From Candidatus Melainabacteria bacterium SSGW_16 (GTDB lineage Bacteria > Cyanobacteriota > Vampirovibrionia > 2-02-FULL-35-15), in contig DUDS01000021.1 in assembly GCA_004769085.1 (NCBI GenBank), forward strand, positions 1 to 64,000: a stretch of 64,000 nt of DNA. The letters run 5' to 3'. Within the stretch, counting starts at the first letter, position 1; each line of letters opens with the position of its first letter. A program made the translations under genes and the position numbers. Shown here in pieces: positions 27,076 to 61,081 of the stretch. The notes below the pieces were generated by a model, which was not told the DNA's origin, did no database searches, and worked only from the letters and a program-made list of their open reading frames with translations.

Positions 27076-27096
27076 AAAAATATTTCATTTCCTCAA

Positions 27097-29690: not shown

Positions 29691-29705
29691 TAAGCCGCCA
29701 ACCAT

Positions 29706-38856: not shown

Positions 38857-39804
38857 TCAAAGTTTTGGTTTTATACGCTTTATCTCCTTTATCTCACCAG
38901 TAAAATATTCTCCACAAACATTACAGTGAGCTCGATTAGCACCAACCGATATTTGATTGAAACTGATAGGATAAGCTGATAAAACAGAATCTACAACTAA
39001 TTCATCATCAATCCACACCAATAAGTTATTATTCACTTTATCTGAAATTTTGTTTGAATAAAAAGAATTAAAACTAATATCTACTTTATAAGTATGATCT
39101 GGATTTAACTTAAGTATCTTTCCATCAGCTCCGTGAACTCCCCAATGATCACCATTTATTTGTATCGTATCATCAGGCAGATATTTTACATAAACCGTAT
39201 CACCGAGCCCTGGTTTACCAGTAGAAAGAAGAGGCTCTGAAGAGTCAGGTCTATAATTAAACCGAAGTTTCATAGATATGGGGCCATGATACTTTCTGTT
39301 TTCATCTCTCATGAGCCTCCAGGAATAGCCATCATACCAATAAGCAATTTTAGAATTATCCTCACTCCACAATTGTCCTTTTTCAGGAGAGCTAGGGAAG
39401 GAAGCGTGAAAGATTTTCAAGGATGGAGTTCCACTAACAAGAAAGTAGCAAGTGCTAAGGGCATTGTACATTTGTGCACTATAATATTTAGATATTGAAG
39501 AAGGTGAAAACTTAAGAACAAGACTTCCAATAATAATTAAAAGTAAGGTTAAATAAGCATAGTATCTTTTAAAATTCGAAATAACAAAAACTTGTGTTAA
39601 TAAAAAAATTAAGATGGTAATAGAAAATAAAACTTTTATTTTCTCTGCAGAATAGAGCAAAACAAAAATAAAAGACAAAATAGGTGGAATAACAAGAAGA
39701 ATTAAAACAGCAGAAAACATAAAAGCATAAAATATCAATTTGCTTTTAGTCAGTACTTTCATAGTACTGTTTTTTATTTCATGATCTTTCAAGATACTTA
39801 CCAT
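38857..39804 (-). CDS. Membrane protein carrying a conserved C-terminal beta domain
   Basis: A 315-residue protein. Residues 25-130 form about four membrane helices. From about 132 to the end is an extracytoplasmic domain that is clearly homologous to residues 528-711 of the membrane protein at 58946-61081. Shared landmarks in order: GQLW, W-x-DG-x2-W-x-L, RD...KY-x-GP, SEPL-x-STG-x-PG-x-GDT-x-YVKYL, DHWGV, and C-x-VCG-x2-FTGEI. The aromatic, Gly-rich pattern suggests a jelly-roll, lectin-like fold, but I do not recognise a named family. Probably a receptor or acceptor-binding partner for the neighbouring GT-C enzyme. Confidence 0.72.
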   Translation of the reverse strand: MVSILKDHEIKNSTMKVLTKSKLIFYAFMFSAVLILLVIPPILSFIFVLLYSAEKIKVLFSITILIFLLTQVFVISNFKRYYAYLTLLLIIIGSLVLKFSPSSISKYYSAQMYNALSTCYFLVSGTPSLKIFHASFPSSPEKGQLWSEDNSKIAYWYDGYSWRLMRDENRKYHGPISMKLRFNYRPDSSEPLLSTGKPGLGDTVYVKYLPDDTIQINGDHWGVHGADGKILKLNPDHTYKVDISFNSFYSNKISDKVNNNLLVWIDDELVVDSVLSAYPISFNQISVGANRAHCNVCGEYFTGEIKEIKRIKPKL

Positions 39805-39974
39805 AAACCTTGCAACTGCGGGTATTATCTTAACTTTATTAAAGACAAGCCATATTCAATAATTCTTTACTTCCAGACATAATAACAATATATCATTTTA
39901 TTAAAACGTAAGTATCCTAAAATAAGTTACGATTTGCAGAAATTAAAAACAAGGATGGGTATATAAAAAATAAC

Positions 39975-41147
39975 ATGGATGTTTCAATTGTAATGCCTTG
40001 TCTCAATGAAGCAAAGACGCTCCCGATTTGTATTGAAAGTGCTAAAGAGGCAATTAATGAATTGAGTAAAAACGGACTTAAGGGAGAAATTGTTATTTCT
40101 GATAACGGCAGTATCGATGGAAGTCAAGAAATCGCTCTAAGGGCAGGATGCAGGGTAGTAAATTCACCCTGCCTTGGCTATGGCAATGCTTTAAACTATG
40201 GCATTGAATCTGCAAAAGGCAAATATATAGTAATGGGTGACTCTGATGCTTCATATAATTTTATTGATTCAGTACCCATGGTTCTAAAACTATTAAATGG
40301 TTATGAAATATGCATGGGAAACAGATTTAAAGGCAAAATTATGCCCGGGGCAATGAGCTGGAAGAATCAATATATTGGCAATCCAGCACTGACTGGAATT
40401 TTAAATTTATTTTTTCGATCGATTTATTCAGATGCTCATTGTGGTTTGAGAGCATTTACAAAAGATGCATACAAAAAAATGAATCTATCATGCCATGGAA
40501 TGGAATTTGCTAGTGAAATGGTAATTAAAGCAACTGTCTTAAAATTAAAAGGTACTGAACTACCCATAACCTTATATAAAGACAAAAGAGGCAGGCCTTC
40601 ACATCTAAGACCATGGATTGACGGATGGCGACATTTAAAGCTCCTACTTGTGTATAGTCCATTATGGCTATATTTCATACCATCAATATTTTTTATGTTA
40701 CTGTGCAGTATTATTTTTGCAGGACTCCTCTTTACACCTCCTCACGAGACTTTCAGAATTAACAAATTAAGATTTGGAGATCACTGGATGATAATAGCCT
40801 CGGGGTTTCTTCAAAGTAGTTACCAGATCCTCTTTTTTGGACTTGCAGCCTTGGTAAACAGGATTAAACAGGGTTCAATTCCAAAACCAAAATTACTACA
40901 AAAAGCAGTAACTTTTATAACTCCTGAAAATGCTATTTTATTTGGTATCCTGCTAGTCATGATTGGAATTGGCTCGATTGGTCACTCTGCTTTTATATGG
41001 TTACAAAATATTTCTGAACCACTTTATCAAATTAGAAAAGTTATAATTGGGATGACTTTTGTTTGTTTGGGGTTGCAAACTTTCTTTGGAGGATTTCTTA
41101 TATCAATAGAATTGGAACTAAATGAACAACAAGAGGAAAAAAGTTAG
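39975..41147 (+). CDS. GT2 glycosyltransferase with C-terminal membrane domain
   Basis: A 390-residue enzyme. The catalytic part (about 1-235) opens DVSIVMPCLNEAKTL and has ISDNGSIDGS, the acidic motif GDSDASY, and SDAHCGLRAF. About four membrane helices follow (from about 232: LWLYFIPSIFFMLL...). Such DPM-like enzymes with added helices make polyprenyl-phosphate sugars at the membrane. The last 26 bp overlap the next oxidoreductase gene, so a three-gene unit with that gene and the GT4 gene is likely. Confidence 0.88.
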   Translation: MDVSIVMPCLNEAKTLPICIESAKEAINELSKNGLKGEIVISDNGSIDGSQEIALRAGCRVVNSPCLGYGNALNYGIESAKGKYIVMGDSDASYNFIDSVPMVLKLLNGYEICMGNRFKGKIMPGAMSWKNQYIGNPALTGILNLFFRSIYSDAHCGLRAFTKDAYKKMNLSCHGMEFASEMVIKATVLKLKGTELPITLYKDKRGRPSHLRPWIDGWRHLKLLLVYSPLWLYFIPSIFFMLLCSIIFAGLLFTPPHETFRINKLRFGDHWMIIASGFLQSSYQILFFGLAALVNRIKQGSIPKPKLLQKAVTFITPENAILFGILLVMIGIGSIGHSAFIWLQNISEPLYQIRKVIIGMTFVCLGLQTFFGGFLISIELELNEQQEEKS

Positions 41148-42192: not shown

Positions 42193-42193
42193 A

Positions 42194-43348: not shown

Positions 43349-43383
43349 CAAATATATAAAAAGAATCTGAAAAATATAAGAAG

Positions 43384-44943: not shown

Positions 44944-45034
44944 ATGACGTTACCTCTTAAAAAAGTATTCAGCAAAACAGTCTCCTGTAATAAAACAATA
45001 TTTCAGATGTTGTAAACATATGTAAATATGGCTA

Positions 45035-47386
45035 TTAACAATTTGTTGTTTCATGCTTTTCTAATTTCACCACAATACTTCTGGAAAAGTAAAAATAACC
45101 AATAATTGAAAGAAGAATTAAAACCAGTCCAAGGAATGCTGACTTATAAAATAAAGGTGGTATATAACCAATCTCAATAATGTGCTCACCTTTTGGTAAT
45201 TTAAAAAAACACCATCCCTTTAAATGCTGATTTAATTTTCTTCTTTTTCCATCTACAGCTATATAATATCCATTTCTGTATTCATTATGATAAAGCCATT
45301 TTGTTTTCACTGTAGAACTAATATGAGCTTTTATTTTTTCCCTGTCATATTCAAGTATTTTCAATAAACTTTCAGACGACAAAGGATATATCTGCCTAAA
45401 AAGCCATTGTGGTTTATTGGTATTGTATAAAACAATCTCCTCATCTTCATAAATAATAGGAAACTTACTCAAGATTTCTGAATATCTCTCCCAGTCTGTT
45501 GTTGCATTTATTTTTAAAACAACTGCTTTTGTTACTCCATACCGACTAAAGTATGTATTCAAGATCATTAATGGAGATCTAATTTTTGTTTTTAAGAAAG
45601 GATCATAATAATTCACTGCTCTTACATCATAAATACAGGAATAATTATGTGGAAGTGCAGTCACATAAGGGGCTTTATCATGACGAAAAGGAGCAAAGCC
45701 AACGAGAATATCTTTTTTACTAATATTCTGTTTAAGTCCTTTATTTAATTTAGGATATGGTTTTTCACCATAGGTATAAAATGCAGTATTTGTGCCAAAT
45801 ACTGCAATAATTATCGTCACCAGGAAAGAAAGGAAACCAGCATACCCAAGAACCTTTTTAAAGGCTACTAGTTTTCTTAAACTATTAAGCTGAAGCGTAC
45901 TATACAAAATTACTCCAAATATAGAAAGTGGAAAGCATTTAAATGGATCATGCATATTCTTTAGAAGAGGAATAAAGTGTTTTATAGGATAGATTAATGA
46001 AACAGGTCCACTAGGCAAGAAAAATAATACTGTAGCAAAAATTAGAAGCGGTATATAATCCCCTTTGTTGGTCCTTGCATATCTAACTATCCCAAGAAAA
46101 AATGGAATCATCCATAGAAGACCTATATAGAACATGTTTGTCATAAGAAAATCGTTCTCATTCCCCCATCCTTTTGGATGCTCTGCCCAGCTAATCGGAA
46201 ATGGGAAAAATGCTGATATAACAGCATCAAACGAAATGCCGGTATGAGAAATTAATGGTTCCCGAGCTTTCCCAACCTGCTTCAGGACAGAAATCTGTGA
46301 AATAAGAAGTGGTGAAATAATTCCGCATGTAAGAATCATGGAACAAAAATAACTACCAAATAATTTTCTTCCCCGTCTGAGCTTAATTTCTCCAAAAAGA
46401 TATGAAATAAATTCAATTATCAAAACATAAGAGAAATATTGTGCATTTCCGGCATAAAAAAATAACCCTCTCACTATTCCGACACATAAAAACCAAATCC
46501 AGCTTGCACCTTTTTTAATTGCAAATAGAAAAAAATATAATAAAGCAGGTAAATATAAAACAAATGCGCTTGCATAATACCAGCTTCTGATTGTTATAAA
46601 AAAATAAGGTGAAAATAAAAAAGAAACAGTGGCTACAAAGGATAAAAGTGAATCTATCTTAAGAAGTCTAAATGAATAGCCGAGAAATATGGCGCCAGTA
46701 AACATGCACAAGATAACATATATTTCCATAGTAATATATGGTTTTTGGAGAATGTATCTGCCTAGTGCATAAGAAATTATCATCAAAGGATCGAAAATTG
46801 CATACGTTCCTGTTTCAAACAACGGAGCACCAAAGTGTTGGTAATTATCAATAAAGGGTGATTTCCCCTGAAAAATGAGATCGAGTCCAACAAGTATTTT
46901 AGGAAAAAATTGTGCATGATTATCATCTTGTGTAAAAAAATAAGGATACATAAATTCTTTAAATAAGAGAAATAAAACAACAAAAGCGCCAGTAATCCAT
47001 ATAAGCAAGATAGAGACAGGTTTAGATTCAGTTTTTTCAGAACTAAAGCTGAAAAGCGATTTTAAAATTATTGTTAGAGTAGGATAAACACAATATATAA
47101 AAAGAGCAGCAAAAAATAAAATTACCGGAATAAATTTATGAAACCAATTATCTTCTGGAACATGCTGGGATTGAAAAAAACTAATAATCACTGGGTAATT
47201 AAACCAGGTTCCTTTAATCACGTTGGAAATTTTTTCTATCGTAATTAATCTTGGTAGAGACCATAAAAAAAATATAAAAAATATATATAGTCCAAAAATT
47301 ACATAAAATTTGTTGACCAATCTTGTACGGAATTTAAATACTAAAAGCAAAGTAAGTGAAATAATTATAAGGAAAGATAAAAGCAT
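45035..47386 (-). CDS. YfhO-like membrane protein
   Basis: A 783-residue protein with about 12-13 helices and a C-terminal extracytoplasmic region followed by a final helix. TQDDNHAQFFPKILVG in the first large loop carries the acidic pair of GT-C enzymes. The C-terminal block GYYIAVDGKRRKL...KLPKGEHIIEIGYIPPL is characteristic of YfhO proteins, which add sugars to teichoic or other surface polymers. It is a close paralogue of the next upstream gene (47391-49781), 4 bp away, so both are one transcript. Confidence 0.82.
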   Translation of the reverse strand: MLLSFLIIISLTLLLVFKFRTRLVNKFYVIFGLYIFFIFFLWSLPRLITIEKISNVIKGTWFNYPVIISFFQSQHVPEDNWFHKFIPVILFFAALFIYCVYPTLTIILKSLFSFSSEKTESKPVSILLIWITGAFVVLFLLFKEFMYPYFFTQDDNHAQFFPKILVGLDLIFQGKSPFIDNYQHFGAPLFETGTYAIFDPLMIISYALGRYILQKPYITMEIYVILCMFTGAIFLGYSFRLLKIDSLLSFVATVSFLFSPYFFITIRSWYYASAFVLYLPALLYFFLFAIKKGASWIWFLCVGIVRGLFFYAGNAQYFSYVLIIEFISYLFGEIKLRRGRKLFGSYFCSMILTCGIISPLLISQISVLKQVGKAREPLISHTGISFDAVISAFFPFPISWAEHPKGWGNENDFLMTNMFYIGLLWMIPFFLGIVRYARTNKGDYIPLLIFATVLFFLPSGPVSLIYPIKHFIPLLKNMHDPFKCFPLSIFGVILYSTLQLNSLRKLVAFKKVLGYAGFLSFLVTIIIAVFGTNTAFYTYGEKPYPKLNKGLKQNISKKDILVGFAPFRHDKAPYVTALPHNYSCIYDVRAVNYYDPFLKTKIRSPLMILNTYFSRYGVTKAVVLKINATTDWERYSEILSKFPIIYEDEEIVLYNTNKPQWLFRQIYPLSSESLLKILEYDREKIKAHISSTVKTKWLYHNEYRNGYYIAVDGKRRKLNQHLKGWCFFKLPKGEHIIEIGYIPPLFYKSAFLGLVLILLSIIGYFYFSRSIVVKLEKHETTNC

Positions 47387-47390
47387 AGAT

Positions 47391-49781
47391 TTAAGCTTCT
47401 TTAAGGCTTTGTTCCTTCATTAAGATCAGATAAGCCAGAAATGCCAGTACAATAAGAATTCCGCCCAATAATATTGAATATCCAAACAGTGGAGGAATAT
47501 AACCAATCTCAATAGTATGCCCACCTTTTGGTAATTTAAAATAACACCATCCATGCCAACTTTGATCCAATTTATATTTTTTACCATCAATAATAATATA
47601 ATAACCATCTCTATACTCATTATGATAAAGCCAGCCAGATTCAATTGGGGAATTAATTTTTGCTTTAATTTTTGTTCTGGTGTATTCAATGATTTCCGGA
47701 ACAACCTCAGGCATATAATTATTGCCCACAGGGACTGAAAAACTATAAGGCCACAATAACCATTTCGGATTATCAAAATCATAAAGTGTTAATAAATCAT
47801 CTTTATAAATTATTTTAAATTTTTCAAACTGACCAGCAAAATAGCGCCAGTTTGTAGGGATACTTGCATTCTGAATAATAACCTTCGTTACACCTAATAA
47901 TCCAAAATAATCTGTAAGATCTGATTTTGGTGGTGGTTGCTTAATCATTGTCGGTAACAATGGATCGTAAATATTAACAACCATTAGATCATATAAAACT
48001 GAGTAATTATGCGGCAATAAAGTTACATATGATGGTTTGTCATATCTTATATGAGTAAAAGTACATATTGTGTCATCTTTTTTAACCAAATCCCTGATTT
48101 CTTGTTTCAGATCAGGATAAGGTTTTTCTGCATATAAGTAAAATGCTGTATCAGTTAAATAAATAGCAACAATTCCTGTAATAATCATGTTTAATACCAA
48201 AAGAAAGTTTAAGATATTTTTTATTTGAACTATCTTTTTCAATTCGGTCAGTATAAAAGCAGAATAAATCATAATTAAGAACAAAGCAAAAGGATAGAAT
48301 TTAAATGCCTTATGCATCTTATTTAAAATCGGTATGAAATTCTTCATAGGATAAATAAGAGAAACAGCTCCGCTGCAAATGATAAATAAAAACATTGCCA
48401 ATAAAAGTATTCGATAGTACAAGCATTTTCCGGTCCTGATATAAAGAAGCGAACCAGCATAAAAACACATCATCCACAAAATCCCAATATGCCACATATT
48501 AGGCAGTAACCACCAGTTCTTATTACCCCACGTGGGGGTAGATTGGAAGAAAGGTGACGGTATAAAAGAAGAAATAAGTGCATCTATTGGCATACCACCT
48601 ATTGAAACAAGAGGTTCAACATGACGTTCAACACCCTTAAGCATTGTTATCTGGGAAATAAAAAGCGGGGAAATCAACCCAAATGTAAACAACAGAGAGC
48701 AAAAATACCCAGTTAAAACTTTTTTTCTATTCTCACTGTTTAATATAAGATAAATATATGAAACCAGTTCAATTAAAACACCATAAGTAAAAAACTGGGA
48801 ATTCCCTGCATAAAAGAATAATGCTCTTGCTAAACCACTTCCCAATAACCACAAAATATCATTTTTACCATGTAAGATCTTTAAAAAAAAGTATAAAAGC
48901 AGAGGAAGATAAAATACAATTCCAAATACATAATACCAACTTCTGCCAACCATAAGAAAATAGCCGCAAAGAATGTAGCAAAATACTGCTGCAATCCCTA
49001 CCAATGAATCAATTTTTAAATTCCTCAGACAAATTCCAAAGAATAGAGCACCAAAAAACATGCTAAGAATGGCGTAAATTTCAATTGTCAGAAAAATATT
49101 TTTAAAAAATTCTCTTGCTATAAAGTACGAGGAAATCATAATCGGATCAAGAATGGCATAAGTACCAATTTCAAAGATAGGCGCTCCAAAATGCTGAAAG
49201 TTATCAATAAAAGGAAACTCTCCTTTTAACAGCAACTGAATACTAACGATTATCTTGGGGAGGAACTGGGAATGTGTATCATCCTGGGTAAAGTAAAAAG
49301 GTGTATTTGTTTCTTTCAACAACAAAATTAAAAATATAATTGAAGAAATAAATAGAATATCCCCGATTGATATTATTGAAATTGTGGAAGCCTGTTTTGA
49401 AAACGGGAATTTATACTTAAGATAATTTATAATACTTGGCAATTGAAAAGAAATAAGAATAAGTCCAAGCGCAAAAAATACGGGTATTAATTTTGATATT
49501 AATTTATGATCAGGCGTGTATTCAACACCATAGTCAGATTCAAGGATCGGGAAATGAATCCCTAATGAATCAAAAAAGTCCATAAAAGGATTATTTGCAA
49601 ATAGCCGGGACAAAATCCAAATAATAATTACTGTTAAAAAATAAATACCGACAACCTTATTAAGATTTTGTCCTATAGATTTAAATAAACCAATTGATGC
49701 TTTTTTCTTTAAAAAACTAATCGTCTCATATAAGAGTGTTGATATAAGCACTATTAGAAGAATCAATAAAAATATTTTCAT
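47391..49781 (-). CDS. YfhO-like membrane protein, tandem paralogue
   Basis: A 796-residue protein with the same organisation as its downstream neighbour: TQDDTHSQFLPKIIVS in the first large loop, HFGAPIFEIGTYAILDPIM, and the C-terminal block GYYIIIDGKKYKL...KLPKGGHTIEIGYIPPL before a final helix. The two share sequence along the whole length, so they arose by gene duplication and may form a heterodimer or transfer different sugars. It lies 62 bp downstream of the HAD phosphatase gene, so it may be read from the six-gene operon upstream. Confidence 0.82.
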   Translation of the reverse strand: MKIFLLILLIVLISTLLYETISFLKKKASIGLFKSIGQNLNKVVGIYFLTVIIIWILSRLFANNPFMDFFDSLGIHFPILESDYGVEYTPDHKLISKLIPVFFALGLILISFQLPSIINYLKYKFPFSKQASTISIISIGDILFISSIIFLILLLKETNTPFYFTQDDTHSQFLPKIIVSIQLLLKGEFPFIDNFQHFGAPIFEIGTYAILDPIMISSYFIAREFFKNIFLTIEIYAILSMFFGALFFGICLRNLKIDSLVGIAAVFCYILCGYFLMVGRSWYYVFGIVFYLPLLLYFFLKILHGKNDILWLLGSGLARALFFYAGNSQFFTYGVLIELVSYIYLILNSENRKKVLTGYFCSLLFTFGLISPLFISQITMLKGVERHVEPLVSIGGMPIDALISSFIPSPFFQSTPTWGNKNWWLLPNMWHIGILWMMCFYAGSLLYIRTGKCLYYRILLLAMFLFIICSGAVSLIYPMKNFIPILNKMHKAFKFYPFALFLIMIYSAFILTELKKIVQIKNILNFLLVLNMIITGIVAIYLTDTAFYLYAEKPYPDLKQEIRDLVKKDDTICTFTHIRYDKPSYVTLLPHNYSVLYDLMVVNIYDPLLPTMIKQPPPKSDLTDYFGLLGVTKVIIQNASIPTNWRYFAGQFEKFKIIYKDDLLTLYDFDNPKWLLWPYSFSVPVGNNYMPEVVPEIIEYTRTKIKAKINSPIESGWLYHNEYRDGYYIIIDGKKYKLDQSWHGWCYFKLPKGGHTIEIGYIPPLFGYSILLGGILIVLAFLAYLILMKEQSLKEA

Positions 49782-49843
49782 GATTTTATTTCATTTTTAC
49801 TCTAAAGTTTAATTTATAAAACCTGTAATGGCAACAACTCCTA

Positions 49844-50521
49844 TCAGATTTGAGACAGAAGTCCATCCTTGATAATAATTGTTCTTATATTTTCTGATTT
49901 ATCCTTCCTGTAGCTATCACCAATTATTACAGCATCTTTTCTGTTCCCAGATACTTTTTTTAATGCATAACTAAAAATAAATGGATCAGGTTTTTCAACT
50001 CCTGCTTCCTCAGAACTTACAATAAAATCGACATAAGAATAAATTTTTAGTTTGATTATCTTAGAAAACTGTATTTGTGAGCACAAGTCAGTAGCAATTA
50101 CAATCTTTTTTTTGTTCTTCTTACAATATTTTAAAAATGGTATAACCCACTGAAAAAGTTTCATTTTATAGAGGAAAGCTTTCCAGTAAATATCTTCAAG
50201 TGCTAGAGATTCTTTAAACATACTTCTCTTAAATATAAGTTCAAGCATTTTTTGGAAATACAAGAGTCTTGAATGTGAGGCTGCTTGGTTCCTTAGTGGG
50301 ATTTTCACAAGATTTCTTGCCCCATTATACTTTCTTAAAAAGTTTTTAAAAGTTATTCTCCCTATCTTTTTTAAATAAAACCAGTAAGAAGTTCTTATGG
50401 CATGAACATGGCAGGAATCATAATCATAAAGGGTATTATCCAGATCCAAGAGAATTATTTTTTTTGAATCAGCTGCTTTACAAAGTTCTAAAAATATATT
50501 TTTTGAAGTTAACTTTCCCAT
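49844..50521 (-). CDS. HAD-superfamily phosphatase
   Basis: A 225-residue HAD hydrolase. The start is taken as ATG 50521 (MGKLTSKN) rather than an upstream TTG. Motif I is LLDLDNTLYD, motif II VIATDL, motif III lysine in EEAGVEKPDP, and motif IV IIGDSYRKD. The size and the C1 cap fit small-molecule (sugar phosphate or nucleotide) phosphatases of the Gph/YjjG type. It is the last gene of the tight operon that starts at 57850 and overlaps the GDPD-like gene by 13 bp. It probably dephosphorylates an intermediate made by the kinase or aldolase of the same operon. Confidence 0.9.
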   Translation of the reverse strand: MGKLTSKNIFLELCKAADSKKIILLDLDNTLYDYDSCHVHAIRTSYWFYLKKIGRITFKNFLRKYNGARNLVKIPLRNQAASHSRLLYFQKMLELIFKRSMFKESLALEDIYWKAFLYKMKLFQWVIPFLKYCKKNKKKIVIATDLCSQIQFSKIIKLKIYSYVDFIVSSEEAGVEKPDPFIFSYALKKVSGNRKDAVIIGDSYRKDKSENIRTIIIKDGLLSQI

Positions 50522-51087
50522 AAATGTGGTACTTTTGTACAAACTGCATCAATCTTAAAATTTTTAAGTGTATTTTTAAACTCTTTTATTCTATCAGTGG
50601 AATAGCCTTGAAGCTCCGGAGAAACTATACAGAGCTTGAAACAATTTTTCAGTTTTTCATATGAATTACTATCAAGCGGCATTTTATTAAAACAGTCAAT
50701 CCAGACCCATTTTGTAATATTTTTAAGTGCCAAAGCCTGCTCCAGTGGCTCATATTCAGAAAATCTCACAGCTATATTATTTTCACCTTTTTTTGAAAGT
50801 TTTATTATTGCAGGAAAGGAAAGATCCAGGAAAAAATAATCCTTTACGCGATAAGAATTAATAAGCCTCAATGTCTCATCTTCAATACCCTCAGTTTTTA
50901 CATTCAATATAATAAATGAATGTTTGTATTTCTTTAATAGGTCTTCAAGATATTCACCGCTTTTATAAGGATCATGCTGAAGAATAAGTTTACTTCCCTC
51001 ATATCTGATATCAATCTCTATTCCCATATTAAATGGAACAGTTTCAAGGTCTTTTACAGTGTTTATTCTGTGCCTTATATAAAACAT
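50509..51087 (-). CDS. Glycerophosphodiester phosphodiesterase-like protein
   Basis: A 192-residue protein with a GDPD-type TIM-barrel pattern: IRHRINT at the N-terminus (His for the usual HRG), GIEIDIRYEG with the metal-binding Glu-x-Asp, and LILQHDPYK. Downstream is VKTEG, as in family members, and it is shorter than typical GDPDs (about 240). No signal peptide, so cytosolic. In this operon it may act on a phosphodiester made by the double nucleotidyltransferase, or catalyse a related lyase or transferase step. It sits 2 bp after that gene. Confidence 0.75.
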   Translation of the reverse strand: MFYIRHRINTVKDLETVPFNMGIEIDIRYEGSKLILQHDPYKSGEYLEDLLKKYKHSFIILNVKTEGIEDETLRLINSYRVKDYFFLDLSFPAIIKLSKKGENNIAVRFSEYEPLEQALALKNITKWVWIDCFNKMPLDSNSYEKLKNCFKLCIVSPELQGYSTDRIKEFKNTLKNFKIDAVCTKVPHLWES

Positions 51088-51089
51088 TA

Positions 51090-53387
51090 TTACTTACCGT
51101 TTAAATCAATTTCCCCTTTTGCAATTTTATCCTTTAACTCGAAAATATACTTGAATGTTCTCTTAATTAGTTTCCACTTCGTTTTAAAATCAGAACCACC
51201 GCCACCTTTTGCCTCCCCATAAAGCCTGTCCTTAAAATCCACAGGAATTGTTACAAAATTACATCCTTTCTTTTTTGCAAGATATAAAACATAAAGGTCC
51301 AGTGAAAAGTCATCAGGTGGATTTTTCATGCCATTAAAAAAATTTCTCGAAAAAAGCTTTGGCTGAGCATTAATCTCTGAGAGATAAGTGCCAAGAGAAA
51401 GACTTGCAAGAAGCTGCATGGCAAATGAAAAGAATTTCTCACCTGCCTTTCTGTTTGTCCTGTAGCCCTTCACAAAGGTATCAGGTCTTGTCTTTGACTC
51501 TTCTGTATAAAGCTTATATGCACGGATTACATCTTCCGGATTACATTGCATATCTGCATGTGTCCATGCCAAAACCTCGCCGATAGAATTTTTTAATCCC
51601 TGAACTATACCATTACCATAGCCTATATTTACGTCAATCTTTACTGGTTTAAGATAGCTATATTTCTTTTTTGCTTCCTGAAGAAAATTCCATGTGTTAT
51701 CCTTCGAGCCATTATCAACAATTACAAGCTCCATGTTGTTTTTATCAATCACCTGATCAAACCTGGTTAATAAAGTATTGAGATTTTTCTCCTCATTAAA
51801 ACACGGTACAACGATTGATAAAGAAATCTTGCTCGTACTCTTAAGGCTGAAATATCTGTTCCAATATTCATATGTCTTTAAATCATTTGGGGTTCCCCAG
51901 CATATATATTTCTCCAATTCAAAAACATGCACATTAAGATTATTTTTCACTAAATAATTCATACAGTTATCGATATAGAATTCGTTATTAATTCTGTCAT
52001 TTGCCTTTATCATTTCTTTTACATTATCAATGAAATACCTTCCTTTCCTGAACCAGAATGAACCTACAACTGCATGATCTCTGACAGGGTTATCGCTCAC
52101 AGGAATCTTAACTGAGACCTTTAAAACTCTGCTGCCATCTCTAACTAGGACCCACCCATACATTTTAGGGTTTCTTTTAACTGTTGGATTATTCCTGAAG
52201 GTAAATATCATTGCATCCACCCCGGAGCCAGGAGAAATCATCTCATTAAATTTTTTAAAATCATAAACCATTCCATTATCACAAGCACCTATCATAAGAG
52301 GTTTATCCGGTTCAATAGCTTCCTCCGCCAACAGCACTGTACAAGCTTGTCCTTCAGTAAGGTAATCCACCTCAATAATTTGTGCAGATTTAAATTCTCC
52401 TGAAACTGATTCCTTTATATCTTTTCTTTCAGCCAGCTCTTTTCTCATAATAAATATATACTTGTTTCCTTCCGGAATGGTTCTTGCCGCCTGAATAAAC
52501 ATAGGAAATCCATCAATATTAATCAGTGGTTTTGGAAGAGTATATCCTTCATGCTGGAATCTTTTCCCCTCACCAGCCATTGGAATTATTATATTCATTG
52601 CGTGTTTTACTTTATACCTTACAGAATTCTTTTTTTGTCTGAAATAATCGGACCAATACAAGTATTCTTCAAGATCTTCCGGTGTCCCCCATTGCAACAT
52701 GAAAGGTATTTCATAAATAATTATATTCAGATTATCTTCTTTCATCAGTTGAAATAACTGACTAACATAAAATTCATCATTAATTTTCCATTCTGGTCTT
52801 TTCTCAATCTCATGCATATATTTCTTTAAGTACTTCCCTTTTTTGAAATAATAAGTTCCTGAGCTGGACCAGTCATCCATTTTATTTTTATGCCAAGAGT
52901 GTTTCTCTCTTATTTCCTTCATCCATAGATCACTGGCATCAAGCGTTGCATAATTATTTGGACCAAGAAGATGCGGATGAAACCCTCGATAACAAACCAC
53001 TGCACCATCACAGTTACTTTCAACAATCTTTCTTTTAAAATCCTTGTAGTCCCATAACCAAGAAAAATCACAGTAGTTTACAATTATTTCTTCATTATCA
53101 TCAATGCATGATTCCATATTTCTAAGCCCATATAAAGGACCTTCTTTCTTATAGGGTATAGTTATAATTCTGCTTTTCGGTGCAATTTTTCTCAAAACAT
53201 CAACTATATTGGTGTCTTTTTCCTGCTCTTCATTAATAGCAAAAACAAAATCATCATCTTTAGAAAAATTTCTGACAATATGTTCAACTATTGGGCAGCC
53301 ATCAACAACAATTAATGGCTTTGGGATCTTATATCCTGCATCCAGGAATCTTTTTCCTCTGCCTGCAAGTGGTATTAATACCTTCAT
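51090..53387 (-). CDS. Fusion of two sugar nucleotidyltransferase domains and a GT2
   Basis: A 765-residue three-domain protein; ATG 53387 shares its A with the upstream TGA stop. Domain 1 (about 1-258): MKVLIPLAGRGKRF and PKPLIVVDG, ending in WGTPEDLEEY. Domain 2 (264-515): MNIIIPMAGEGKRF and PKPLINIDG, ending in WGTPNDLKTY. Both are nucleotidyltransferases with the G-x-G-x-R-F loop, diverged copies of one another. Domain 3 (about 521-765): GT2, SLSIVVPCFNEEKN, IVDNGSKDNT, THADMQCNPED. It makes an activated sugar or polyol phosphate and probably uses it. The substrate is not predictable. Second-domain motif residues such as ACDNGM differ from domain 1 (NYCDFSW), hinting at different jobs. 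Confidence 0.85.
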   Translation of the reverse strand: MKVLIPLAGRGKRFLDAGYKIPKPLIVVDGCPIVEHIVRNFSKDDDFVFAINEEQEKDTNIVDVLRKIAPKSRIITIPYKKEGPLYGLRNMESCIDDNEEIIVNYCDFSWLWDYKDFKRKIVESNCDGAVVCYRGFHPHLLGPNNYATLDASDLWMKEIREKHSWHKNKMDDWSSSGTYYFKKGKYLKKYMHEIEKRPEWKINDEFYVSQLFQLMKEDNLNIIIYEIPFMLQWGTPEDLEEYLYWSDYFRQKKNSVRYKVKHAMNIIIPMAGEGKRFQHEGYTLPKPLINIDGFPMFIQAARTIPEGNKYIFIMRKELAERKDIKESVSGEFKSAQIIEVDYLTEGQACTVLLAEEAIEPDKPLMIGACDNGMVYDFKKFNEMISPGSGVDAMIFTFRNNPTVKRNPKMYGWVLVRDGSRVLKVSVKIPVSDNPVRDHAVVGSFWFRKGRYFIDNVKEMIKANDRINNEFYIDNCMNYLVKNNLNVHVFELEKYICWGTPNDLKTYEYWNRYFSLKSTSKISLSIVVPCFNEEKNLNTLLTRFDQVIDKNNMELVIVDNGSKDNTWNFLQEAKKKYSYLKPVKIDVNIGYGNGIVQGLKNSIGEVLAWTHADMQCNPEDVIRAYKLYTEESKTRPDTFVKGYRTNRKAGEKFFSFAMQLLASLSLGTYLSEINAQPKLFSRNFFNGMKNPPDDFSLDLYVLYLAKKKGCNFVTIPVDFKDRLYGEAKGGGGSDFKTKWKLIKRTFKYIFELKDKIAKGEIDLNGK

Positions 53388-54196
53388 CACTCTGCCTCTA
53401 ACAGCTTCTGCCTGTATTGTTCTTCTTCCATATTTCTTATAAAATTCACATCACTTACAGACAGATAATCAATCTCCCATTTTTTTAAATTTATAAGTTC
53501 GGCAACCTTGTTTGAATAAACATTTAATTCTGATATTGCAATTTTCTGTTTATTTGATAATTTATTTTTATCAAGTGCAGAATAAACTACATGATCAGGT
53601 GTTAAAAACCCTTCTAAACTGATACTTTTGTAAGAGTCTGGCGAGTATTTAAAATAACCGGAGAGAGTATTAATAACTTCACTATGTAATCCAGTACACC
53701 CATCTTTATTTGGCGCAGAAACAAAAATACCATGGTTCTTTAAAAATAAAACCAATGGTTTGTTTAAATCTATGTCATTTGCTTTTACAAAGTCATGGAT
53801 TTTCTTAAATAAATTTTTACCGGGATTTGCATAATCAATCCAGAAATAATTTTTCCCGTTAAAAAGCTCATAAAAAACTTTTTTACCCTCTTTCGCACAT
53901 ACAATCCCACCTACAACAATAGGGTGAGTGTGAATAATATATTTGCCAAGCAAAAAATGAATAGCAGTTTCTAATGATGGTCTCAAATTTGGATTAATTA
54001 GTGGTTTCATTGTTCCAATTTCAAGAGAAACATATCCATTCTCCAAAGTCACATCTTCCAAAAAGAAACCAGATGCCTTAACAAGCATTTCATTACTGGC
54101 TTTTACAGAACAATTACCTCCTCCTCCCTGCACAAAACCGGGGTGCTTTGCAGCATAAGCAGATAAGTCTACTAAGTCTTGAATTAGCCTGCTCAA
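53387..54196 (-). CDS. Class II aldolase/adducin family protein
   Basis: A 269-residue protein, TTG start at 54196, the only one fitting the family N-terminus ([20 protein letters not shown]). The phosphate-binding GGGGNCSVK and the zinc histidines in YIIHTHPIVVGGI are visible, with NHGIFV carrying the third His. Such enzymes cleave or form sugar phosphates, or act as epimerases. The operon setting between a kinase-like fusion and a double nucleotidyltransferase suggests it makes the phosphorylated carbon chain that is then activated. It overlaps the upstream gene by 4 bp and the downstream one by 1 bp. Confidence 0.87.
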   Translation of the reverse strand: MSRLIQDLVDLSAYAAKHPGFVQGGGGNCSVKASNEMLVKASGFFLEDVTLENGYVSLEIGTMKPLINPNLRPSLETAIHFLLGKYIIHTHPIVVGGIVCAKEGKKVFYELFNGKNYFWIDYANPGKNLFKKIHDFVKANDIDLNKPLVLFLKNHGIFVSAPNKDGCTGLHSEVINTLSGYFKYSPDSYKSISLEGFLTPDHVVYSALDKNKLSNKQKIAISELNVYSNKVAELINLKKWEIDYLSVSDVNFIRNMEEEQYRQKLLEAE

Positions 54197-56274
54197 ATCC
54201 TTTTTGCCTTCATTTTATTATTGTAAATCAAAAGAAAAATAAGCTGGGTTATTCCATCATAATTGCTCAGCCATCCTGGCGATGATACAAGGAGCTCATC
54301 AAAATTAAGACCCATGTCAAATGTAAGTGAGATTATCTCCTGATCTGATATCAAACCATTAATCTCAATTTCCTGATTTATAAGATTTTCAGAATGTTTG
54401 TGAGTAACTTCAAGTGTCCTTATTTTTGACAAGCTTGAAAGTAAATTTTCAAGATTTATACTATTATCCAGTTCATACTTTACCTTTATAGGTATATCAG
54501 CAGGTTTAAGATCATTAAGATCAATATCAGATAAAGGAATATACCTGATTATAAGATCAGCAAATTCCCTTTGTGGTTTAATATATTTTTCGCTGTCTTT
54601 TGTACGTGAATTTATCTGCTCAACAACTTTTTCTTTTCGATAACCTCTTTCTACCATATCTCTGCCAACTTTCCAGAACTGTCTGAGTCTTTCATCAGGA
54701 TCCATAAATATTTTTATATCAATCTGTTCTCTCATACTCTTCAGATAAAACGGATGAAGACCTATAAAGAAAACAAATTTGTTCGGCTCAACTGTCTGTG
54801 GATTTGTAAATCTCCCTGTATCGTGATTATAATGAACAAGTTCAATTTCTCTTTCTTCTTTAAGCGCAACTGCAGACTCAACTTCCTGATGAAGCTTATT
54901 ACTTGCAGGATCAAGATGAGTGTAAACCTTCCAGTTTTCATCTCCTCTCTCCCATTTATGGAAGTTATCTCCATAAACCGGCACACATGAGGTTTTACCT
55001 AAAAGCTTTTCAAATATTTCATATGTAGTATGCTTGCCTGAGCCGCTATCCCCACCTATACCTATTAAAAGAGGTTTTTCTTTTATCTTCAGTTCTTCAT
55101 TTCGCTTCACACCACTTTGATACATCCAGATTGCACTAAAACCAACCGAAGATAAAAGCAATGAAACAGCAAGATTATGAAATAAAACAGGATCAATAAA
55201 ATTACTTAAGTGGGTATAACTCTTTTCAAAAAAGAACGTGAAATAAAGGGCATAAATCAGGTTATAAAGAATAAAAGGCGCTCTTGAATGATCAACATTG
55301 TTAATATAAAAATAAATCAAAAATGGCAGTGACCATACAAACCAGCCAGGCATTGGAGTAACAAATATAACAAGACATGCAAAAACTACTCCGGCAAACA
55401 TCATGAGTATTTCTTTATTAAGTTTTTTATAAGAGGAGAATTTCATAAAGAGGAGAAATATAACTATAGGACAAACAACTATACTCAGAGTATTTGAAAC
55501 CGGAAGTGAAAATTGATAAATTCTTTGTTGTTCAACTGCCTTAAAAACCATTTGTATAAATGCTTTTGAGCTAATATAGGGAGAAATAAAAAGCAGATAT
55601 AAAGCTAAAAATGACAAGAGGTATAAAGTAAATTTCAAAACACTTGATCTTTGTTTATAAAGAAAAAGAAATATAAAAGGTGTAAAAATAAATATGTGTG
55701 TCTTTGTTGCTGCAGCAATGGCAAGAAAAATAATTGAAATATAGTATTTTCTGTTAAGTAAAAGGAGAATTGCATAAAGGAATATTGCTGTTGGAATCAG
55801 GTCAAGCTGACCATGTATATAGTTAATAAAAAATATAATCGGTGAACACCAGTAGGTATAAAGAACCATTTCCTTTTTTGTAGGAAAGATTTTTAGAAAC
55901 AGATTGAACATAAAAATATCAAAACCAAGAAGAGGGAGCCTCATTACAAACAAATCAATACCAGAAATAATATTCCAGTTACTTGCCATTAATTTATTAA
56001 ATACAATCACAGGAGATGTCATTATCCAGAGCATTACAGCAGGATAAGGAAACATTTTTAATTCATTTAATGAATAAAAGTAATCCCAGGGATTCTTAAA
56101 GCCGGACTGAACAAACCACTTTATAAAGGGGGTAAAGTATTCTGTCAGATAATGAGATGAAAAGAAAAATGAAAAAATAATTTTAAGTATCAATATTGAA
56201 ATAAATAGTTTTGAAAAAAATATTTCATTTGGTTTCTGCTCTCTAAATGAAGGGTTAATATTATTTCTCCTCAT
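54193..56274 (-). CDS. GT-C-like membrane protein fused to a uridine-kinase-like domain
   Basis: ATG at 56274 is preferred to an in-frame TTG 15 nt upstream. About 693 residues: 1 to about 395 polytopic (about ten helices; early loop [17 protein letters not shown], like PIG-M/GPI-mannosyltransferase-like proteins), then a cytosolic kinase-like domain. The P-loop [11 protein letters not shown] is at 407-417, where the Ser/Thr after Lys414 is His415. Downstream are [24 protein letters not shown] and [15 protein letters not shown], which fit the uridine kinase/phosphoribulokinase layout. The domain may phosphorylate a sugar or polyol at the membrane. The unusual His in the P-loop should be noted. 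It overlaps the flavoprotein gene by 14 bp. Confidence 0.78.
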
Positions 56275-57850
56275 GATATTCCATTTCAACGTTAACTGCC
56301 CATATATTGTCCTTTGACTTTATACCATTAATTATGTTTTCAACCGCTGTCATTGCAGTAAGCATTGAATGATCCTGATTATTATAGCGATGCATGCCAT
56401 TCCTACCAACTAAAAAGAGATTCTCAATTTTGTCAGTAAATTCACGTATAACATCAAACTGATCATAGGTACCAAAATATGCAGGATAAGTATTCTTTAG
56501 TCTTATCACAGTGCTATCCAATACATCGTTCTTTTCAATAATGTCAATTTTCACTAGTTCATCTATTGCAAATTTTGAAAACTGTTCATCAGTCATACTC
56601 CATAACTCATCTCCCACGTTACAAAAATACTCTAGTCCTATCCAGGCCGTATCAGGGTCTTTTACCATATACGGGCTCCAGTTATTAAAAATCTGAAGTC
56701 TGCCTAATTTTACGTCTCTTTCCTGAATATAAATCCAGTTATCAGGAACAATGTTATTTATTGTAGGAATATTTGTCTGATTTTTAATTTTTAATTTTTT
56801 TAGCAATAATCCTACAGTAATGAAATCTCTGTAAACAAGTCCATCAGAAATTTTGCTTACATTTTCAGGTACTTTATTTCCCATACAGTGAATAAGTTCT
56901 TTGACAGGCATTGTTGAAAAGAAGTAATCTCCTTGGACATCTTTAATTTCTCCTGTTTTTGTATCTTTTATCTTTACTTCTACAATATTATTTCTATCAA
57001 GTTTTAGTCCTATAACTTCATGGTGTAAAAATACTTCCCCACCTTTTTCCCTGATTATTCTTGTAGTTTCCTCCCACATCTGACCAGGACCAAGTTTGGG
57101 GTATAAAAATTTTTCTATCAGGCTAGTTTCTGTATCTTTCTGAGAAAGCGAAGAATCTTTCGAAGATATTGCTTTTAGGGCATGTAAAATTGCTTTTGTT
57201 ACTGACAGTCCTTTAATTCTCTGTGCTCCCCATTCAGGTTTTATCTTGTCACATGGGGTTCCCCAGACTTTTTCTGTATAGTCCTTAAAGAAGGTGAGAT
57301 AAAGCTCTCTGCCAAATCTGTTTATAAAAAAATCTTCAAGCGATTTTTCATGTTTAATAGGGAAAAATTTTATTTTTAAATAACTTAAACCAATCCTGAT
57401 CATTCTTATAAAACCAAGATTGTTTATCGTATTCATATTCAAGGAAACCGGGTAGTTAAAAAATTTCCTTAGAAAGAATATCCTTGAAAGTCTTTTTCTG
57501 ATTAACATTACTTTGTCATTTTTTTCCGGATCAGGTCCGTTTTTTGACATTGAAATGGTTTTCTTTTTATTCTGATATGTAAGTTCCGTTGTTAATTCAT
57601 CTCTGGCAGGCATTCCCTGTAAAGGCATAATATTTTGCCACCATTCCATAACTCTGTCTGATTTGGAAAAAAATCTGTGTCCACCCATATCTATTTTGTT
57701 ACCCTTGTAGTTAACTGTTTTTGCTATTCCACCAATATCACCACTGGCTTCAAAAATAATTGGTTTAATATCAGTTTTGTGTAAAAACTCATACGCTGCA
57801 GTTAGTCCTGCAGGGCCTGCACCAATAATAATTGCTGTTTTTTTACTCAT
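56261..57850 (-). CDS. FAD-dependent oxidoreductase, UDP-galactopyranose-mutase/amine-oxidase-like
   Basis: A 529-residue flavoprotein. [13 protein letters not shown] (residues 10-22) binds FAD, followed by [15 protein letters not shown] and [14 protein letters not shown]. These are the opening motifs of the protoporphyrinogen-oxidase/UDP-galactopyranose mutase-like group. The C-terminal [16 protein letters not shown] closes the FAD site. Members in glycan loci rearrange or oxidise nucleotide sugars. It is the first gene of the six-gene operon, 174 bp downstream of the oxygenase gene. The activity is not fixed by sequence. Confidence 0.85.
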
Positions 57851-58024
57851 TATTTTAAATAAATGCTGTCACGATCCACTATAACCGGGAGGAGTATATT
57901 TGCCTCTAAAAATTTATTTCCCATTCTGCCATCAGCTTTTCCATAAAAAAGCTGTAAATTTGCAATAATTCACACAAATAAATAAGATTTACGACTAACC
58001 AGGCTAATAAAGATAATCCACAGT

Positions 58025-58879
58025 CTATTTCTTCTTTAGGGAAGATATTGTTTTTAGCACATTACTAACAAATCTGTCATCAAATTTAAATATTCGTTTG
58101 AACATATCATATGAGCTAAGTACCATTTTATCAAGGATTATCATACATCTTTTAAATAAATTGTCTGTTGGAATAGGTTTATAATTTGTTGAGTGTACTT
58201 TATGGACTGCTTCCTCCGTAAAATAATAAAGTGCTATTGATTTTCTTGTAATATCTTCCGGACAAGTTATAGGATGGGGATATCCATGGTGGGAATCTTC
58301 ATCTGTATTAAAAATAACTGCTCTGTTAAAAACCGGTGCAACTTTCTTTACACAACTTTTCATTTTTTTGTCCCATAGCTCCAGAGAACCACCGTAAGAT
58401 TCTTGCCAGTTTTTATTCAGGTAAACAAGTACATTAACTCTTCTTTTCCATTTTAAATTATGTGGGTGAGCTGTAAAATCCGCATGAATATTTAAAAATC
58501 CACCCCTTTTCGTCTGATGCAGTCCGCCACCTTCAAGCCCCCAGTCAGCATTTAAATCCTTAATACCTGTAAGTCTGCTTAAAAAATTTAAGAACTTTTC
58601 CGAATTCAACTCTTCAACTATTGCCTTTATTCCTAGTGGAAATGTTTCAATTTTATTTTTACCAAATTTGTTTTCATTATAGTGAACATAATTAATCCAT
58701 TCGCTTGAATCTAGTGAAGGGAATTCTTTCAGAGCAGTCTCAGCAGCTTCAGTGCTTAAAAAATTTTCAAGAACAATATGAGGATAAGGATCTGCAGATG
58801 AATATTTCCTGTTCAGATCAGCTAATTCCTTCTCCCAGTAGGAATAATCAAATATTCTTGTTAAGTAACTGGTACTCAT
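58025..58879 (-). CDS. 2OG-Fe(II) oxygenase
   Basis: A 284-residue enzyme with the prolyl-4-hydroxylase-type layout. The iron ligands are H132 and D134 in NIHADFTAHP, the distal His is H197 or H198 in DSHHGYPHP, and the 2-oxoglutarate Arg is in ITRKSIALYYF. It hydroxylates a small molecule or glycan/peptide side chain, using 2-oxoglutarate and O2. Its position between the six-gene operon and a large membrane protein suggests that it modifies a sugar of the surface glycan. Confidence 0.9.
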   Translation of the reverse strand: MSTSYLTRIFDYSYWEKELADLNRKYSSADPYPHIVLENFLSTEAAETALKEFPSLDSSEWINYVHYNENKFGKNKIETFPLGIKAIVEELNSEKFLNFLSRLTGIKDLNADWGLEGGGLHQTKRGGFLNIHADFTAHPHNLKWKRRVNVLVYLNKNWQESYGGSLELWDKKMKSCVKKVAPVFNRAVIFNTDEDSHHGYPHPITCPEDITRKSIALYYFTEEAVHKVHSTNYKPIPTDNLFKRCMIILDKMVLSSYDMFKRIFKFDDRFVSNVLKTISSLKKK

Positions 58880-58945
58880 ATGGAAATCATACCCTCAAAA
58901 GTACTGATTTTAACGGTTTTATTAACTGGAATGATTAGTCAACTT

Positions 58946-61081
58946 TTACTTATAAATAATTCTCATCCCTGCTCTTCTTGCTTCTATTATCTCACCTGTA
59001 AACTGTAGACCACATACACCACAATCAACCTGATTTTTACCTATAACAATTTGTTCGGGTTTTGTAGCATGAAATCCTGTAGGTCTGTCAAGCAGTGTCA
59101 TCCCATCCACTTTTACAATTACATTTCTACTTAAAGCACCTAAGTCAATACCAGGATAAAAAGAACCAAAACTCACCTCAATAATATATGCCCGATTTGG
59201 ATCTATTTGAAATATGTTGCTTGGAAAACCTTCTACACCCCAATGGTCATAGCATACCTGCCCTGTTGTAGCAGATAAATATTTTACATATATAGTATCC
59301 CCTGAGCCTGGTACACCGGTGGAAACAAGAGGTTCTGATTCACCGTGTCTTGGCTTAAATAAGACTTTTAAAGTCACAGGGCCTAAATATTTGTTTCCAT
59401 CGTCCCTTATTAAAGACCAATTTTTTCCATCAAACCAGAATAATGTTTCATCGCCATCAGGAGTCCATAGTTGTCCGGTTACAGGATATGATGGAAAAAC
59501 ATTTTTATCATCAAATCGCAAAACCTCAAGAACACCTGATTGTGATACTTTCTTAGAAGCAAAAATACTTATGTAATTATCTGCTTTTTTAAAGAAATTT
59601 CTGATTGGCGGTTTGGCATGCTCCGGAACAGACCAGTAGTTTAATTTAAATTTGAGCATAGTCATATTAGCAGTATAAATACTTAGTAATGCAAGAAGTA
59701 AAAATATTATCCTTACAGAGATTTTTAGTTTTCCTCCCTTTTTATCTGTCCAGTTAAAGAATTTAATTGCTGCAAATGAAAAAATTAGAAATGTTGGCAT
59801 AAGATCCGCTGTATATCTTCCTGTCATTGCCTGAAAGGAAAAGAAGAATAAATTAGAAATTACAAGGGCAAGAAAAAGGAAAATTCCTATTCCTCCATAT
59901 GCGCTAACTAATAAAAAAAGCCCAATAACAGAAGTAAAAAATAAAAATGGTGTGTGAATTATTGCCGGGTTGCCCGGTTCTATAACATCAAACCAGGTAT
60001 CTTTAAATTTAAAAATATTCCTGTAATCAAAAATTTCTATAAACGGAAATTTATCCGAAAAATGTTCTTTATGCGGGATTAGATGAAAAACTACTGAATG
60101 AGGGATCCGTGAATAATCCATAACCCCTTTTGTTGAAAGCCATAGCTGAAGCCTGCCTTTGTCAGCAATTGTTTTCTCGTAATAATGGTAGTCCATCATT
60201 ACAAATGGATTTCCCATTTTTTCATAATTTAACTTCACCTGGAAAAGAATACTTAAACCAGTAGGAATAATTAAAACAAGATAAGCCAGTAAGAGTCTTG
60301 AAACAGTAATATGAGTTTTCTTCCAGCCAAGCCAGTTTAAAACTGACTTGAGCACTTTGTTTTTAAAAAAATCACTTAAATTAGAAAGAAATAAAACAAA
60401 AATCAGTAAAAGTATGACAAGGAAAGGGAAAATACCAAAACTTGCACGGCTTAATAATGCAAAGCCAGAGCTTAATGACATAGCTAGCAAAAGCAGAAGG
60501 CCTATCCTGTCGGAAAACCAAAAATTAATAAATGCCCAGATAAAAACACATACATTTGCAAGTCCCCAGATTATTGCTTCATGATAAACATACGAAGATG
60601 TAAGCAGAATAACGTTATAAGAACCATAGGCAAAGACAAGAAAGAAGAGTATTGTATAAAAGTATCCTGCAACCCTCCGAAAAGCAAATGTACAGGAGAG
60701 CAGAATAACTATTGCCGCAATAAGATTTGATATCCTTGACCAGTCAGTATTATAGAATCTAGGGAATACACTAAAAATGCCCCTTACAAAGCCAGGGAAT
60801 GGCCCAAAATACATGTACCTTTTCCCGTTATGATAATATGTTTCCCCAAAATCAATTACTGCAGGGTCAAGATCAATTCTCCCTTTTAAGAGTTGATCCC
60901 ACGTGTTTACATAGTTTATCCCCATGTACTCTCTCGTGAATAGATTCATTTCACCATGGGTAACTATAAGTGTATAAAACCAGACAGTAAAAATACCTAC
61001 AAAAATAAAGAATAAAACTAAAATAGCTTTCTTAGGATTTAGCATCCTTAGCTTACGATCAAAATATGAATACCAGTCCAT
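58946..61081 (-). CDS. GT-C-like membrane protein with shared C-terminal beta domain
   Basis: A 711-residue protein. Residues 17 to about 505 are polytopic (about eleven helices) with an extracytoplasmic loop containing REYMGINYVNTWDQLLKG and YYHNGKRYMYFGPFPG. Residues 528-711 form the domain shared with the 315-residue membrane protein at 38857-39804 (GQLW, SEPLVSTGVPGSGDT, YVKYL, DHWGV, CGVCGLQFTGEI). It is about 67 bp downstream of nothing on its own strand, so it begins its own unit and leads into the oxygenase gene 66 bp after its stop. Probable transferase with an outer recognition domain. Confidence 0.75.
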   Translation of the reverse strand: MDWYSYFDRKLRMLNPKKAILVLFFIFVGIFTVWFYTLIVTHGEMNLFTREYMGINYVNTWDQLLKGRIDLDPAVIDFGETYYHNGKRYMYFGPFPGFVRGIFSVFPRFYNTDWSRISNLIAAIVILLSCTFAFRRVAGYFYTILFFLVFAYGSYNVILLTSSYVYHEAIIWGLANVCVFIWAFINFWFSDRIGLLLLLAMSLSSGFALLSRASFGIFPFLVILLLIFVLFLSNLSDFFKNKVLKSVLNWLGWKKTHITVSRLLLAYLVLIIPTGLSILFQVKLNYEKMGNPFVMMDYHYYEKTIADKGRLQLWLSTKGVMDYSRIPHSVVFHLIPHKEHFSDKFPFIEIFDYRNIFKFKDTWFDVIEPGNPAIIHTPFLFFTSVIGLFLLVSAYGGIGIFLFLALVISNLFFFSFQAMTGRYTADLMPTFLIFSFAAIKFFNWTDKKGGKLKISVRIIFLLLALLSIYTANMTMLKFKLNYWSVPEHAKPPIRNFFKKADNYISIFASKKVSQSGVLEVLRFDDKNVFPSYPVTGQLWTPDGDETLFWFDGKNWSLIRDDGNKYLGPVTLKVLFKPRHGESEPLVSTGVPGSGDTIYVKYLSATTGQVCYDHWGVEGFPSNIFQIDPNRAYIIEVSFGSFYPGIDLGALSRNVIVKVDGMTLLDRPTGFHATKPEQIVIGKNQVDCGVCGLQFTGEIIEARRAGMRIIYK

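Follow-up and report, generated by a model that had tools for sequence, protein, structure and literature searches.

A laminin-G-like module without a family name on GT-C-like membrane proteins of Melainabacteria and Verrucomicrobiota, with a probable role in holding acceptor glycans

We analysed a 64,000-nucleotide stretch of Candidatus Melainabacteria bacterium SSGW_16 (the window, contig C23:1-64000 of the source genome, G000), in which two membrane proteins, A and B, end in the same module. By its predicted fold alone, this module belongs to the concanavalin A-like lectin/glucanase superfamily and is laminin-G-like, and it is in no named family. Its usual site is a coherent GT-C-like membrane family that also has no name and that was missed by the earlier note on this DNA. 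The module is probably an extracytoplasmic carbohydrate-binding module (CBM) that holds the acceptor glycan for a polyprenyl-phosphate-sugar-dependent GT-C glycosyltransferase or perhaps, on A and the related protein D, which have no enzyme domain, for a neighbouring enzyme.

Proteins A and B share a two-part C-terminal module

The open reading frames of A and B were both present on the (-) strand (Table 1). BLASTP aligned A 136-310 with B 529-703 without gaps over 175 residues, at 43% identity (166 bits, E 2e-50), and the Smith-Waterman score between the two modules was 410, compared with a maximum of 48 in 100 shuffles. The sharing proposed in the earlier note was thus borne out, and every motif listed there was found in the shared module. 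The ~184-residue domain that it described is indeed shared, but is not a single unit. It consists of a core of ~140 residues, running from 'GPxxLKLRF' to 'FTGEI' and present in every copy, preceded by a ~40-residue hairpin (GQLW...WFDGKNW...RDD) that is confined to the Melainabacteria copies. We considered the hairpin as a free mobile element and rejected this, as in G000 it was found only with the four cores.

The commonest core positions were P584, G589, D595, D612-H613-(W614), D659-G660, G681-x-N683 and F694-x-G696 (B numbering). The terminal C-x-VCG cysteines noted earlier were complete in A, B and D only; since C and the G001 protein do not have all of them, they are no hallmark of the family. 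For the membrane parts, the earlier note had reported a difference between A and B, with four and about 11 helices; they showed no detectable kinship (score 53, shuffle maximum 66), and the count for B stood at 11, but in our reading of the hydropathy scan A has three.

Table 1. Features of the window and of the adjoining part of contig C23
Feature	Position	Strand	Description
Protein A	38857..39804	(-)	315 aa: 3 predicted transmembrane helices + hairpin + core; no enzyme domain recognised
Core module of A	38875..39291	(-)	residues ~172-310; as a homologue of the B core, expected to have a concanavalin A-like fold
Hairpin of A, GQLW...WYDGYSW	39283..39402	(-)	N-terminal to core; Melainabacteria copies only
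Membrane anchor of A	39514..39735	(-)	residues ~24-97; homologous to anchor of copy D outside the window
451-aa multi-helix membrane protein	37465..38820	(-)	36 bp downstream of A; possible partner
Protein B	58946..61081	(-)	711 aa: 11-helix GT-C-like membrane part + hairpin + core
GT-C-like membrane part of B	59636..61081	(-)	residues ~1-482; homologue in G001; protein E (same contig) related by profile
E80 of B	60842..60844	(-)	acid of first outside loop, D/E before Y-x-Y-F-G-x-x-P; candidate catalytic acid
Core module of B	58973..59389	(-)	residues ~565-703; AlphaFold2 model built on B 515-711
Hairpin of B, GQLW...WFDGKNW	59381..59494	(-)	
Copy C	C23 ~65.8-68.0 kb		just past the window
Copy D	C23 ~68.0-69.0 kb		just past the window

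The predicted fold is a concanavalin A-like jelly roll

Among 73 copies scanned against Pfam and NCBIfam, none had a significant match; the best Pfam match, Laminin_G_1, had an E value of 0.036 and was obtained with a single member. The module is therefore unnamed, as the earlier note had supposed, and no known, described family was matched in either collection. When the 73-copy profile was searched against the PDB, an agrin chain came top, below significance (E 0.022).

We then modelled residues 515-711 of B with AlphaFold2 from a 10-row alignment (window, L009, L010). The model had a mean pLDDT of 80.6 and a pTM of 0.73, with core blocks mostly at 75-97, and was a two-sheet antiparallel concanavalin A-like jelly roll. 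Foldseek matched it to the LG domains of neurexin, agrin and SHBG, to pentraxin and to CBM40, with E values down to 1.7e-4. VIA-align gave Z scores of 10-10.8 to laminin LG domains, pentraxins and galectins (~108-134 residues aligned, rmsd 2.4-3.7), and its matches lay within model residues 49-197, nearly all of them over the core. As these structural matches tie, they identify the superfamily but no particular family. EmbC and AftD were not among the 50 structural matches listed by VIA-align, which does not count against a likeness to them. A lectin-like fold had been suggested before, and the predicted structure agrees with it.

LG domains also bind proteins and steroids, and the fold alone is no proof of sugar binding. 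There is a small but appreciable chance that the module is a protein-binding laminin-G-like domain, assembling glycosyltransferases and three-helix stubs or binding an envelope protein, not sugar. The neurexin, agrin and SHBG domains that head the Foldseek matches are themselves binders of proteins or steroids, and the separate stubs A and D would suit a role in assembly. However, the tandem repeats on apparent glycan-synthesis enzymes favour sugar, CBM40 and galectins are among the near folds, and other GT-C enzymes carry known CBMs (PMC11127046, PMC3044687).

A GH16-type signature (E-x-D-x(1,2)-E) was found in none of the 74 copies, and the commonest acids, E583, D595 and D612 (conserved in 72, 82 and 64%, respectively), are not arranged as in GH16. 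That the module is a concanavalin A-fold glycoside hydrolase or transglycosylase, trimming or rearranging a glycan, is therefore very improbable, although beta-glucanases of the same superfamily appeared among the structural matches (1mac in Foldseek, 1byh in VIA-align). The presence of three tandem copies on one protein is also a habit of binding modules.

The module is usually attached to a GT-C-like membrane family

The membrane part of B aligned with that of the G001 protein (36% over 714), and C aligned with protein E (33% over 496) and also with Opitutus Op4. Protein E, which does not carry the module, matched a profile of B, G001 and Opitutus sequences over 390 columns (E 4e-35). The same membrane family is thus common to B, the G001 protein, C and the Verrucomicrobiota module proteins. 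In Verrucomicrobiota, one to four tandem C-terminal cores usually follow ~500+ residues of multi-helix membrane segments; sometimes a single N-terminal core stands ahead of the multi-helix membrane segment. In total, the module was found on multi-helix membrane proteins, as a C-terminal tandem or an N-terminal single copy, in seven genomes.

The 11 helices of B fall in the 7-13 range of GT-C enzymes. The active-site acid of GT-C glycosyltransferases lies in their first outside loop. The first long loop of this family has a D or E before ...G-[KR]-x-Y-x-Y-F-G-x-x-P, and this acid was kept in all 22 proteins in which the motif was found; of the 32 segments examined, the other 10 had no match to the pattern Y-x-Y-[FYH]-[GS]-x-x-P. 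A late R-Y-x-x-D motif was also present in the family. On the basis of this sequence pattern, E80 is the candidate catalytic acid of B. Known GT-C families are often too diverged for sequence matching, and the membrane part of B matched no Pfam glycosyltransferase family and gave no PDB sequence match; the AlphaFold2 model of full-length B was poor (pLDDT 47). From its layout, namely the helix count, the outside-loop acid and the gene neighbourhood, we infer that the membrane part of B is GT-C-like. The module thus sits on a GT-C-like family whose enzyme activity is itself putative.

Two module proteins of Verrucomicrobiota, in L074 and L059, do not read as GT-C. In these (L074:2536-4563 (-) and L059:1450-3360 (-)), the module is fused to a soluble SGNH hydrolase-like domain with a GxS start and a D-G-G-H-F end, a reading to which Pfam gives no support.

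Copies are patchily distributed and the module moves independently of its partner

The two proteins of the earlier note are real, but the source genome holds four module copies, A, B, C and D, all on C23 within 30 kb. One copy was found in G001, a sister genome of the same family. The other genomes sampled (240 of the class, 386 of the phylum) contained no module save one chance-like match, in the cyanobacterial G352, which we rejected since the stretch has three stops and no long open reading frame. A pattern scan of a collection of 84,980 species, which detects only sequences retaining short conserved stretches, added a single locus, 26% identical, from an Opitutus MAG (Verrucomicrobiota). 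After seven Opitutus copies had been added to the profile, the module was detected in 5 of 288 sampled Verrucomicrobiota genomes, including the Opitutus MAG, which contained 18 copies; the other four contained at least 7-13 each. None was detected in the plasmids scanned.

The five copies from Melainabacteria grouped together in a 74-copy tree (FastTree support 0.97; IQ-TREE 94, not starred). Such a grouping agrees with a single acquisition and later duplication inside the genome, and the patchy spread over two phyla suggests transfer.

The earlier description of the module as mobile is supported by the occurrence of the core after, before or in tandem behind differing membrane proteins in two phyla. 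Further support came from comparisons within and between the Melainabacteria genomes. The core of B was 75% identical to that of D, which has another membrane part, 42% to that of A and only 37% to that of the G001 protein, whose membrane part is the closest relative found of B's. The DNA match between B and D (78% over 520 bases) was limited to the hairpin and core. As the core of B is nearest to D yet its membrane part is nearest to G001, movement or homogenisation of the module does not follow the membrane partner; the AU test in which the modules of B and G001 were constrained to one clade was borderline (p-AU 0.054). The likeness of modules within one genome would agree with a single shared ligand. 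The earlier note had tentatively proposed a common surface glycan, and the gene cluster makes putative binding of such a glycan plausible.

Stubs A and D lie beside multi-helix membrane proteins

A and D each have three predicted helices followed by the hairpin and core, and their membrane parts are related to each other (score 79, shuffle maximum 68). We considered A and D as truncated GT-C tails, a BLAST alignment having linked D 6-303 with B 400-708. This was unsupported: taken by itself, the membrane part scored like shuffles against a profile of 24 GT-C-tail sequences and was only marginal in the pairwise comparison (63, shuffle maximum 60). The number of helices and the charge pattern would place the C-termini of A, B and D on the outside, in line with the extracytoplasmic location claimed earlier.

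D is flanked by E, at 74 bp, and by C, at 19 bp. The 451-aa neighbour of A was weakly similar to the putative glycosyltransferases LA_3751/LA_3752 (E 0.0025, far below the cut-off). Its assignment to the GT-C family of B was rejected as unsupported, since hhalign gave an E value of 0.11, compared with 0.4 for an unrelated transporter.

A and D have no enzyme domain, and their anchor is not detectably related to the membrane part of B; they might thus be outward-facing anchors or adhesins with a borrowed module, unrelated to synthesis. We regard this as improbable, because both share a strand with multi-helix membrane proteins at short distances (36 bp for A, 74 bp for D, with D 19 bp before C) and lie in a synthesis cluster. 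A and D could instead serve to hold glycan for a neighbouring enzyme. In its most specific form, this proposal would make the module a new CBM family of lipid-sugar-dependent GT-C enzymes, with A and D as detached acceptor-holding subunits serving the module-free E and the 451-aa protein in trans; we put this forward only tentatively, as somewhat doubtful in this full form. To our knowledge, no split glycosyltransferase/CBM pair has been described.

Gene clusters point to a lipid-phosphate sugar donor

In G000, one strand carries a run of genes, with gaps under ~80 bp, for a sugar epimerase, a sugar-1-phosphate nucleotidylyltransferase, an HddA-like heptose kinase, a decaprenyl-phosphate phosphoribosyltransferase and proteins E, D and C. 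The phosphoribosyltransferase scored 244 bits against the NF008977 cut-off of 234, and its nearest solved relative was 8j8j (E 2.6e-38). The enzyme was above the curated cut-off in both Melainabacteria clusters (G000 and G001). In G001, a PgfS-like GT2 gene overlaps the module enzyme gene, and the kinase and nucleotidylyltransferase are of the same kinds as in G000. PgfS-like GT2 enzymes are of a type that makes polyprenyl-phosphate sugars. Such a gene was also found near module proteins in three Verrucomicrobiota loci, and the phosphoribosyltransferase was absent or below the cut-off in the five Verrucomicrobiota genomes. What these clusters have in common therefore appears to be a lipid-phosphate sugar donor, whose sugar need not be a pentose.

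Further observations concern other genes of the window. A 698-aa protein (54193-56289 (-)) is an unusual fusion of a multi-helix GT-C-like membrane part (~1-395) and a phosphoribulokinase/uridine kinase domain (PF00485, 408-589, E 3e-35). The region 49844-54196 (-) encodes a HAD phosphatase like the haloarchaeal ribulose-1,5-bisphosphate 5-phosphatase (E 8e-40, below the cut-off), two fused nucleotidyltransferase-like domains with a GT2-like part, and an apparent class II aldolase; together with the kinase fusion, these genes may serve to produce a pentulose or polyol in an unusual activated form. Adjacent membrane proteins of 783 and 796 aa (45035-49781 (-)) are near-tandem paralogues with weak YfhO C-terminal matches (E ~1e-7). 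Several proteins encoded at 22783-33021 are rich in D-x-DGDGK-x-D repeats. In one of these, a 1028-aa multi-helix protein (29935-33021) with a counterpart in G001 (L006:15523-18624), the repeats are C-terminal and are perhaps another outside module on a membrane glycosyltransferase.

Comparison with known lectin-bearing glycosyltransferases

The idea of a lectin module on a GT-C enzyme is known from enzymes of the tuberculosis family, and the present module is a family without a name. In EmbC of Mycobacterium, a C-terminal lectin-like CBM binds the arabinan acceptor (PMC3044687). In ORF12 of Citrobacter youngae (GT136), 11 helices are followed by a beta-rich CBM (residues 503-652) that binds unmodified O antigen (PMC11127046). 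By analogy, the present module most likely works as these CBMs do. The ORF12 CBM is dispensable for activity (PMC11127046), which leaves the role of the CBM open even in this precedent.

In EmbC, a GT-C enzyme, a lectin-like beta-sandwich forms the C-terminus on the outside of the membrane, as predicted for the present module, and binds the acceptor (PMC3044687); the mycobacterial pathway uses a decaprenyl-phosphate phosphoribosyltransferase, a homologue of which is present in both Melainabacteria clusters. However, subdomain II of EmbC resembles CBM6/CBM36 and comes with another subdomain, whereas the present module resembles laminin-G, pentraxin and galectins. None of the Pfam matches obtained with A, B or the 73 cores was to the EmbC C-terminal family. 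ORF12 likewise combines an 11-helix GT-C with a C-terminal beta-rich CBM of ~150 residues, and a polyprenyl-phosphoribose synthase is encoded in its own cluster (PMC11127046). Its CBM is described as immunoglobulin-like, in contrast to the predicted laminin-G-like fold found here. The phosphoribosyltransferase of both Melainabacteria clusters recalls the three-component pentofuranose system of GT136; the Verrucomicrobiota differ from this system, having a PgfS-like GT2 instead.

EmbC, AftD and ORF12, the last compared by description, are thus precedents with no detected sequence kinship to the module, and none of the Pfam families of known CBMs matched it. With the laminin-G/concanavalin A-like superfamily (Laminin_G_1/2, CBM40, pentraxin, galectin), it shares the predicted fold without a significant Pfam match. 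LA_3751/LA_3752 (NF047440) were weakly similar to protein E and to the neighbour of A (E ~0.002; 17 bits, compared with a cut-off of 200). Our literature search found nothing on such enzymes in Melainabacteria or Verrucomicrobiota, on a GT-C with a concanavalin A-like domain or on Melainabacteria polysaccharides.

Proposed role and implications

In the mechanism that we favour, the laminin-G-like jelly roll would be exposed on the outer side of the cytoplasmic membrane and, in B and most of its relatives, would be joined to a GT-C that draws sugar from a polyprenyl-phosphate carrier. The module would grip the growing surface polysaccharide, that is, the acceptor, and keep it at the active-site groove, which could raise the local acceptor concentration or the processivity. 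In A and D, the module on its three-helix anchor would hold the same glycan for the neighbouring enzyme. These enzyme-free stubs offer a natural test of whether the module works in trans.

With this module, the range of lectin folds known on GT-C enzymes becomes wider, and acceptor holding would seem to have arisen repeatedly. It also provides a marker, searchable and ready to be named, of membrane proteins that are invisible to Pfam and are probably glycosyltransferases in Melainabacteria and Verrucomicrobiota.
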